From the NCBI GenBank assembly GCA_030700025.1, contig JAUYKI010000009.1, forward strand, positions 1 through 32,203: DNA of 32,203 nt, written 5' to 3'. This document shows, one piece after another, positions 1 through 31,556 of the stretch. Below the pieces are notes generated by a model. The model worked only from the letters and a program-made list of their open reading frames with translations. It was not told the DNA's origin and searched no databases. The stretch comes from a bacterium. GTDB taxonomy: Bacteria; Patescibacteriota; Minisyncoccia; UBA6257; 02-FULL-45-10c. Position 1 is the stretch's first letter; each line of letters starts with the position of its first letter. Made by a program: the position numbers and the translations under genes.

Positions 1-264
1 AGCTACGTCTTCGACGAGTAACGAAGTTATGAAATAAAATCCGCGCATCCCTGGAAGGGTTGTTGCCAAAATAGAAATATCTTTGCGTCACTCCTCCTCG
101 ATGCGGATAAACCGCAATCTTGTCGTCGTTCCTTAACCTATCTTATTTTGGCTAACAATGCGGCGAGAGCTGATATTGGGATAGGGGTCTTAAGCGGATT
201 TTTTTATTGCGCTTTCACAAAAGTGAGGGAGGGGATTTTTGCTTGCCCCGAGCCTATCCTGAGC

Positions 265-5589: not shown

Positions 5590-5719
5590 AGATATTTGAG
5601 GAACACCTGCCTGCCGGTAGGCAGGTCCCGCAGGCGTATTTTGCTTGGACCACAAAATACGCCGAGGGCGAAGAAAAATTAGCCGCTGGAGCTGATTTAT
5701 TCTGTTTCCGAAAATATCT
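5590..5719 (-). repeat. Family III structured repeat, reverse orientation
   Basis: Shares gcgtattttg-tggtccaag-caaaatacgc and ggaaacagaataaatcagctccagcgg core with 11033-11154 and 30924-31045. Confidence 0.75.
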
Positions 5720-11020: not shown

Positions 11021-11032
11021 ATTTTTAATCTC

Positions 11033-11154
11033 GGCTATATCTCTTTTCAGAAACAGAATAATCCGGCTCCAGCGGCCGGATTTTCTTCGCCCTCGGCGTA
11101 TTTTGTGGTCCAAGCAAAATACGCCTGCGGGATGTTCCTCAAAAAGATATAGCC
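11033..11154 (+). repeat. Family III structured repeat
   Basis: ggctatatctcttt..aaaaagatatagcc arms; inner aatccggc/gccggatt and gcgtattttg/caaaatacgc hairpins. Confidence 0.8.
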
Positions 11155-11189
11155 TTGGTTTGGTTGGGTTGCAGAAATATTGAACAAAA

Positions 11190-30464: not shown

Positions 30465-30489
30465 AAGACCTCGCTTTTAGCGAGGTCTT
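30465..30489. terminator. Bidirectional terminator
   Basis: aagacctcgc-tttta-gcgaggtctt between A run and T-rich tail. Confidence 0.75.
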
Positions 30490-30659
30490 TGATTTTGATT
30501 GTTGGATGCGAGTTGCAGGGGCCGGAATTCAATGATGAGCAAGATCGCGTACCAAAGGATATAAATCAACGCACAGAGAATCGCGAGCTGGTTAAATCCT
30601 TTTATCCAACAAACCAATGCGAGAACTCCGAAAATTGGGGCCATGTGAAGCATTAGCAT
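30477..30659 (-). CDS. Small membrane protein (60 aa)
   Basis: SD aaggagg; hydrophobic. Confidence 0.65.
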   Translation of the reverse strand: MLMLHMAPIFGVLALVCWIKGFNQLAILCALIYILWYAILLIIEFRPLQLASNNQNQRPR

Positions 30660-30690
30660 TTCTTGGGCCTCCTTTCTGGCGTTTTTGGGC

Positions 30691-30849
30691 TTACTTCGGG
30701 ATCAGGGGCTTTCTGATTTCGTAGGCGAATTGGATTGTCATTAAACTTAAAAATATCCCCGCGCAAATCAGCCCATATTTGCTATATCCGGCGGTCACGC
30801 AAGCTCCTGTTCCGAGCGCTAAGATCCACATCAAGCTCCTTAGAATCAT
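30691..30849 (-). CDS. Small membrane protein (52 aa), absent from ORF track
   Basis: SD aaaaggaggtt; MILRSLMWILALGTGACVTAGYSKYGLICAGIFLSLMTIQFAYEIRKPLIPK. Confidence 0.65.
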   Translation of the reverse strand: MILRSLMWILALGTGACVTAGYSKYGLICAGIFLSLMTIQFAYEIRKPLIPK

Positions 30850-30923
30850 TGGAACCTCCTTTTTGGGAGCTTCAAACTACTAGGCGTAGTTTAGGTTATT
30901 TTAATTATTTTGTCAAGGGTCTC

Positions 30924-31045
30924 GGCTATATCTCTTTAAGGAAACAGAATAAATCAGCTCCAGCGGCTGATTTTTCTTCGCCCTCGGCGTATTTTGTGGT
31001 CCAAGCAAAATACGCCTGCGGGATGTTCCTTAAAGAGGAATAGCC
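30924..31045 (+). repeat. Family III structured repeat
   Basis: ggctatatctctttaaggaa / ttccttaaagaggaatagcc; same core as 11033-11154. Confidence 0.8.
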
Positions 31046-31085
31046 TCGACTTTGGGATTTAAAGCGCGGGGGTCAATGGGTAAGA

Positions 31086-31110
31086 AAAAGCCCAGTCATT
31101 AAGACTGGGC
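31086..31110 (-). terminator. Rho-independent terminator for the 29-aa ORF
   Basis: agcccagtc-ttaat-gactgggct then tttttc on minus strand. Confidence 0.8.
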
Positions 31111-31120
31111 TGGAAATTGA

Positions 31121-31210
31121 TTACTCCGCTGCCGGATCGTAACGGGCGATACAAAATACCGCTCCGCCAGCCAGAACGCACCCTACCATTACAAGCATCA
31201 GTAGCCACAT
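31121..31210 (-). CDS. Candidate 29-aa membrane peptide MWLLMLVMVGCVLAGGAVFCIARYDPAAE
   Basis: Strong SD aaaggagg 9 nt upstream of ATG, hydrophobic, followed by terminator. Confidence 0.6.
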   Translation of the reverse strand: MWLLMLVMVGCVLAGGAVFCIARYDPAAE

Positions 31211-31227: not shown

Positions 31228-31499
31228 AGCACTCTCTGCATCAGTGTTTCTACCAGCTGAAATCATTGATTTTGTATCAATTTCAAGGCTTTTCTCCGAA
31301 GCTGTGTAGAATCCACAGCGAGGAGAAGTAACGCCGAAATTGAACAAAATCAAGATTCCCTTTCGGGTAAGCGCAGTTTGGCTAAGTTCGTTGTTGCTCG
31401 GGTTCGACGTAGCTGAAGCTACAATCTCACCCTCGCGCCTAGAACTTAGTTTCAAACTGCGCTTATCAGTTCTGGTGAAATACTGATACAGAGAGTGCT
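31228..31499 (-). ncRNA. Candidate structured RNA / leader, multi-branched
   Basis: P1 ~27 bp, P2 12+8 bp, P3 CCC-GAAA-GGG, P4 10+8+3 bp with nested stems; see findings. Confidence 0.6.
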
Positions 31500-31526: not shown

Positions 31527-31556
31527 ATTTTAGTCTATTTTGGTAAGTTTGTCCAA
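31527..31556 (-). promoter_or_regulatory. Promoter TTGGAC-N18-TAAAAT for the structured RNA
   Basis: -35 complement of 31551-31556, -10 complement of 31527-31532. Confidence 0.5.

Follow-up and report, generated by a model that had tools for sequence, protein, structure and literature searches.

The minus-strand element at positions 31228-31499 of the window (the whole 32,203-nt stretch of DNA that was analysed), hereafter E1, is probably a non-autonomous, quasi-palindromic mobile repeat of ~268 bp, MITE-like or hairpin-element-like in character, which is widespread in one order of Patescibacteria and whose transcript folds on itself. Direct support comes from dispersed copies, a conserved size and fold, strict upkeep of Watson-Crick pairing, empty sites, and copies within rRNA and tmRNA genes. 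The initial annotation of this DNA had suggested a novel structured ncRNA or cis-regulatory leader; its structural part is borne out, in that the multi-branched fold is real and conserved, reaches the threshold of no Rfam family, lies between a promoter-like site and a Shine-Dalgarno (SD) sequence, and has its best relatives in front of co-directional starts. However, E1 is not a unique ncRNA, because several copies occupy unrelated sites, including 16S, 23S, and tmRNA genes; rather, it is a dispersed, insertion-polymorphic repeat in which Watson-Crick pairing is kept on both strands. A single-copy ncRNA is ruled out by the copies in its own genome together with matches of a covariance model, R1, across the family.

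The end points and the four helices (P1, P2, P3, and P4) had been outlined correctly from the letters alone. The minus strand of the element folds at -139.9 kcal/mol (z = -15.5), compared with a mean of -67.4 kcal/mol for 200 shuffles, none of which (0/200) folds as well. The plus strand is near-equal in stability (-135.7 kcal/mol, z -13.4), so that folding energy does not pick out the minus strand. The base stem P1 measures about 27-28 bp, and over 102 nt P4 is 72.5% identical (E 1e-7) to the reverse complement of P2, which renders the whole of E1 quasi-palindromic and lets model R1 (P2 plus P3, 119 positions) match elements on both strands. The consensus sequence allows the inner part of P2 to be interpreted as tandem G.A steps (C-GA-C-GA-C-GA-G). 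The GAAA loop of P3, described at first as a GNRA loop, is indeed present on the minus strand but is private to the window copy; relatives carry CTCCG, TTC, GAA, GAC, AAG, or TTT instead, and this variety rules out a GNRA tetraloop as a family feature. Taken as a unit, E1 is short and non-coding, with terminal inverted repeats (28-bp P1, ~268 bp, no gene of its own), as is characteristic of a MITE. The features discussed here are collected in Table 1.

Table 1. Positions of E1, its helices, and associated features in the window, and of further E1 copies in the same genome (contigs C1, C4, and C8).
Feature	Position	Strand	Basis
E1 element, 272 nt, quasi-palindromic repeat, P1-P2-P3-P4	31228..31499	-	Fold z, own-genome copies, homologue alignment
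P1 5' arm, terminal inverted repeat	31472..31499	-	Fold; homologue pair changes
P1 3' arm, terminal inverted repeat, ends at SD	31228..31256	-	Fold; homologue pair changes
P2 arm	31368..31469	-	Fold, homologue alignment
P3 mini-hairpin CCC-GAAA-GGG, loop not conserved	31358..31367	-	Sequence, homologue alignment
P4 arm, approximate reverse complement of P2	31257..31357	-	Self-comparison; R1 matches on both strands
-35-like TTGGAC	31551..31556	-	By eye, consensus match only
-10-like TAAAAT, 27 nt before E1	31527..31532	-	By eye, consensus match only
Shine-Dalgarno AAAGGAGG abutting P1	31220..31227	-	Sequence
29-codon ORF, translation MWLLMLVMVGCVLAGGAVFCIARYDPAAE*	31121..31210	-	Translation
Terminator-like hairpin AGCCCAGTC/GACTGGGCT plus T run after ORF	31083..31112	-	By eye
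E2, second, unrelated three-way-junction repeat	30919..31050		Fold z -8.2
Partial or rearranged E1-type element, window left end	26..210		R1 match 35-157 (-), 56 bits
E1 copy, own genome	C1:19241-19518		90% identity
E1 copy, own genome	C4:1717-1997		86% identity
E1 copy, own genome	C8:20981-21202		71% identity

In the window, E1 makes up most of the 5' UTR between the promoter-like site and the SD of a gene for a 29-codon peptide, and the contact of this SD with the base of P1, as well as the reading frame behind it, are as originally described. The SD is only partly unpaired in the predicted folds, which therefore do not in themselves reveal a regulatory effect. The peptide probably carries one membrane segment, as judged by eye from its hydrophobicity. 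The region 30477-31210 (minus strand) holds three small hydrophobic ORFs (29, 52, and 60 codons), each with a strong SD. The absence of a recognisable known RNA, asserted from the outset, agrees with the Rfam scan: over the window only a distant tRNA exceeds its threshold, and the weak matches that overlap E1 stay below theirs (RtT, 19.7 bits vs 45; MIR7807, 18.3 vs 90). Known families, such as RNase P, tmRNA, 6S, introns, and riboswitches, were accordingly rejected, with none above the gathering threshold over the element.

The covariance check on homologues that had been proposed turned out in favour of the fold. Eighteen homologues of 261-296 nt, with the length held near 268 nt, can be aligned end to end, and they show changes on both sides in 74 of the 107 pairs of the window copy's own MFE structure (25/31 for P1). 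The covariation score reaches 0.401, compared with 0.09-0.11 after the partners are displaced by 1-3 columns and 0.16 after shuffling; together with 82.5% pairing in the homologues, this indicates that the fold is conserved and does not arise by chance. In the stems of a sense-strand RNA, G-U pairs are expected to be far commoner than A-C appositions. With pairs chosen symmetrically on both strands, the stem cells of E1 comprise 1109 Watson-Crick, 19 G-U, and 24 A-C combinations, so that the signature of a strand-specific RNA constraint, in which G-U is tolerated and A-C is not, fails to appear; a tRNA acceptor-stem control gave G-U 10 vs A-C 4, a small sample that carries little weight. Since the stems are Watson-Crick on both strands with no G-U excess, the covariation is strong evidence for structure and weak evidence for an RNA function; the constraint on E1 is strand-symmetric and DNA-like, and bears no clean mark of RNA function.

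The host genome (830 kb in 18 contigs, 98.7% complete) contains three further E1 copies of ~270 bp beyond the window, 71% to 90% identical (Table 1), as well as short remnants and about 20 more distant copies; R1 finds 50 matches in it, with most elements matched once per strand. BLAST-level matches occur in 13 of 61 related genomes. With R1, matches extend to 16/17 genomes of the same family and 60/200 of the order, and become sporadic elsewhere in the phylum (6/384 genomes, including the own one), some of them in other classes with several copies. A conserved motif is also present in named genomes, e.g., Candidatus Harrisonbacteria and other Patescibacteria MAGs. A match in an alphaproteobacterial MAG (L063) was set aside because its fold is unlike that of E1. 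Phage records gave no match and viral contigs lack the exact motif, on which grounds a phage origin was rejected. In the open-access literature text searched, no description of an E1-type family was found.

The copies reside at non-homologous places, namely 5' leaders, gaps of ribosomal-protein operons, the interior of 23S, 16S, and tmRNA genes, and the position directly 5' of 23S (e.g., L004). In L002 and L003, for instance, E1 separates a promoter-like site from the SD of a gene that is aminotransferase-like in the former and glycosyltransferase-like in the latter. The 23S gene of the own genome, 4295 bp long (L112 4365-8659, C8), harbours two E1-type elements and has a third directly upstream. 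Similarly, E1 interrupts the 16S gene of L025 and the tmRNA gene of a relative (L026 1471-1740); this tmRNA was recognised by eye from its gene ends and tag start; ARAGORN made no tmRNA call in the interrupted gene of L026 and Rfam none in the overlapping locus L016. Other copies precede rpmC, rplT (two genomes), rpsN, and gatB, and further targets comprise dnaE, glycosyltransferase, aspartokinase-like, and ornithine-aminotransferase-like genes, all names being assigned by eye (for the former group, from translated starts). Mixed protein and RNA genes of this kind do not form a coherent regulated gene set. Empty counterparts of occupied sites are found in relatives, as would be expected of a MITE: of 16 family genomes, 14 lack the element in the rpmI-rplT gap, which is only 3 nt in several, including G007, whereas 267 nt are held in G008 and in G012, a member of the same genus as G007. 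The tmRNA genes of G003, G014, and G016 and the 16S genes of several relatives are likewise empty at the same place.

Some observations weigh against the mobile repeat. There is no clear target-site duplication: inspection by eye revealed none that was obvious at rpmI-rplT and nothing consistent among the own copies, the nearest case being a possible diverged 10-bp repeat, GAAGTGCGAA/GAAGTCGCAA, that flanks the tmRNA insertion of L026. Nor was a partner transposase found in a search for the Y1 (RAYT) family; this transposase, PF01797, is absent from the own genome and from 13/17 family genomes, and a REP/RAYT system was rejected for its absence from the former. No transposase-coding element sharing the P1 ends was seen in the own genome, where everything that matches E1 or the P1 tip is an E1 copy, a hairpin remnant, or a short leader. 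Moreover, several copies could be old insertions that were vertically inherited, and the best-scoring subset is biased towards the sense strand and start codons to a degree that neutral insertion does not need.

With a mobile repeat as the preferred reading, its toleration may be pictured as follows. Once transcribed, E1 would fold at once into a self-contained four-helix domain closed by the ~27-bp base stem, and the neighbouring RNA (rRNA, tmRNA, SD, start codon) would still fold or work around it; such independent folding, with the neighbours unharmed, would let insertions survive in RNA genes and leaders. By analogy with the Coxiella IVS, whose 28-bp stem (-143 kcal/mol) contains a single mismatch and a single bulge and which is cut by RNase III (PMC4990558), the base stem would be a likely RNase III substrate. 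E1 in the window would thus probably either remain in place, as a 5' leader that insulates and stabilises, or be removed by cleavage, in which event the mRNA would begin near the SD of the 29-codon peptide.

An alternative in keeping with the regulatory half of the first proposal is that E1 is a leader RNA with a cis-regulatory role, resembling a riboswitch or bound by a protein (autogenous control included), which was copied to several genes and whose mobility is incidental. In a survey of 75 distinct elements with genes called as greedy ORFs, 11 of 12 well-oriented, high-scoring E1-proper elements stand in a sense-strand 5'-UTR position before a same-strand gene (p=0.006, a guide only, as the score cut-offs for this set were chosen while viewing the data), while the upstream gene is random (5/9); one locus, L014, was miscalled by the greedy ORFs against the trend. 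E1-proper copies nearly all reach up to the SD or start codon of the co-directional gene, the distance to the start codon being 0-20 nt in many cases (gatB, rpmC, rplT, rpsN, and others), several targets are translation genes, and the covariation is strong. However, the bias weakens to 20/29 (p=0.06) among all scored elements and vanishes among lower-scoring relatives (9/18), and the mixture of targets, extending to dnaE, the other protein genes listed above with it, tmRNA, 16S, and 23S, the lack of a G-U excess with equally stable strands, and the presence of the same gene in sister species without the element make a leader RNA unlikely. A further reading is given somewhat more credence, although it too is only tentative: E1-proper would be a 5' leader of a portable kind, a mobile cloverleaf inserted or retained sense-wise at translation starts and RNA genes, and repeatedly domesticated in Patescibacteria for the processing or insulation of translation-machinery transcripts.

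Less is to be said for two other accounts. A 23-nt palindrome, GCRCTCWCTG-TAT-CRGNGNGYGC, which equals the P1 tip without the E1 core, lies between promoter and SD of three own-genome genes (C10:218, C7:84568, and C18:11685), and collapsed P1-tip hairpins occur at C7:86028 and C1:50187; this short 5'-UTR hairpin or operator might be the functional unit in its own genome, with E1 inserted in its loop, since E1 would then equal the palindrome opened between two CAG. The short forms are equally explicable as remnants of E1 deletion across CAG...CAG, and P1 tips elsewhere differ in sequence, so that this account appears improbable. Scarcely credible, in our estimate, is the notion that fold and covariation are by-products of template switching that corrects DNA palindromes in an inert repeat, the structure being functionless in RNA and DNA alike. 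Template switching in replication can both generate stems and repair them (PMC8794818), and the double changes, which show hardly any G-U or A-C intermediates, fit such a process; yet correction would erase the mismatched or unpaired core motifs of P2 (GGCGCGA...GAGCAACGAAG), which are kept across genera, and the stable length near 268 nt and the biased positions of E1 speak against it as well. The conserved P2 motifs therefore argue that palindrome correction is not the whole story.

E1 is not the only repeat in this genome. The unrelated repeat E2 has 33 matches there and further places in the window at 11029-11155 and 5626-5709; its outer stems vary between copies with the pairing kept, and several copies end at the -35-like TTGACA of a downstream promoter. 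E1-like pieces sit in the apical loop of an E2 arm at L036, L047, and L049 (own genome, C18 and C15), which amounts to a nesting of structured repeats. Separately, the 16S gene of G005 (L025:1096-1495) carries part of another dispersed repeat with ~30 matching places in the G005 genome.

E1 offers a caution, in that strong covariation and a 5'-UTR position alone are no proof of a regulatory RNA; its significance otherwise emerges from comparison with known systems. The rRNA genes of CPR bacteria carry an unusual number of insertions, of which many are short and lack an explanation, and the CPR survey, as far as consulted, does not link the unclassified insertions to genomic repeats (PMC11270868). 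Some such insertions are here shown to belong to a family of structured, probably mobile repeats that is spread genome-wide and also enters the 5' leaders and tmRNA of streamlined genomes. Like the rRNA IVSs, which are 23S or 16S insertions closed by a long terminal stem, the sister copies within rRNA genes (although not the window copy) are closed in this way, and the 28-bp stem of Coxiella is similar to P1 (PMC4990558); however, E1 has no ORF, is dispersed genome-wide, and lies mostly outside rRNA.

The Rickettsia palindromic elements (RPEs) are likewise small palindromic repeats dispersed in a reduced bacterial genome, and they have been reported inside tmRNA and RNase P RNA genes as well as elsewhere (PMC2229807). 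They are long stem-loops of 105-146 bp that are also found in reading frames, whereas E1, in Patescibacteria, has ~268 bp, four helices, and a quasi-two-fold symmetry, and in the cases examined sits at non-coding or RNA positions. Terminal inverted repeats, intergenic location, and co-transcription are shared by ERIC, NEMIS/Correia, and other bacterial MITEs, for which effects on mRNA stability or on cleavage by RNase III that depend on orientation have been described (PMC2229807); E1 departs from them in length, sequence, and fold, and in having no identified target-site duplication or partner transposase. Finally, the GC clusters, double-hairpin elements, and repetitive hairpin-forming elements of mitochondria are protein-less palindromic mobile hairpins that spread in a small genome and whose units merge (PMC4478555, PMC2800124), comparable to the E1-like pieces in the E2 loop. 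Whereas the mitochondrial GC42 has 42 nt, E1 is a bacterial unit of fixed size with four helices, and would represent a bacterial counterpart of these hairpin elements.
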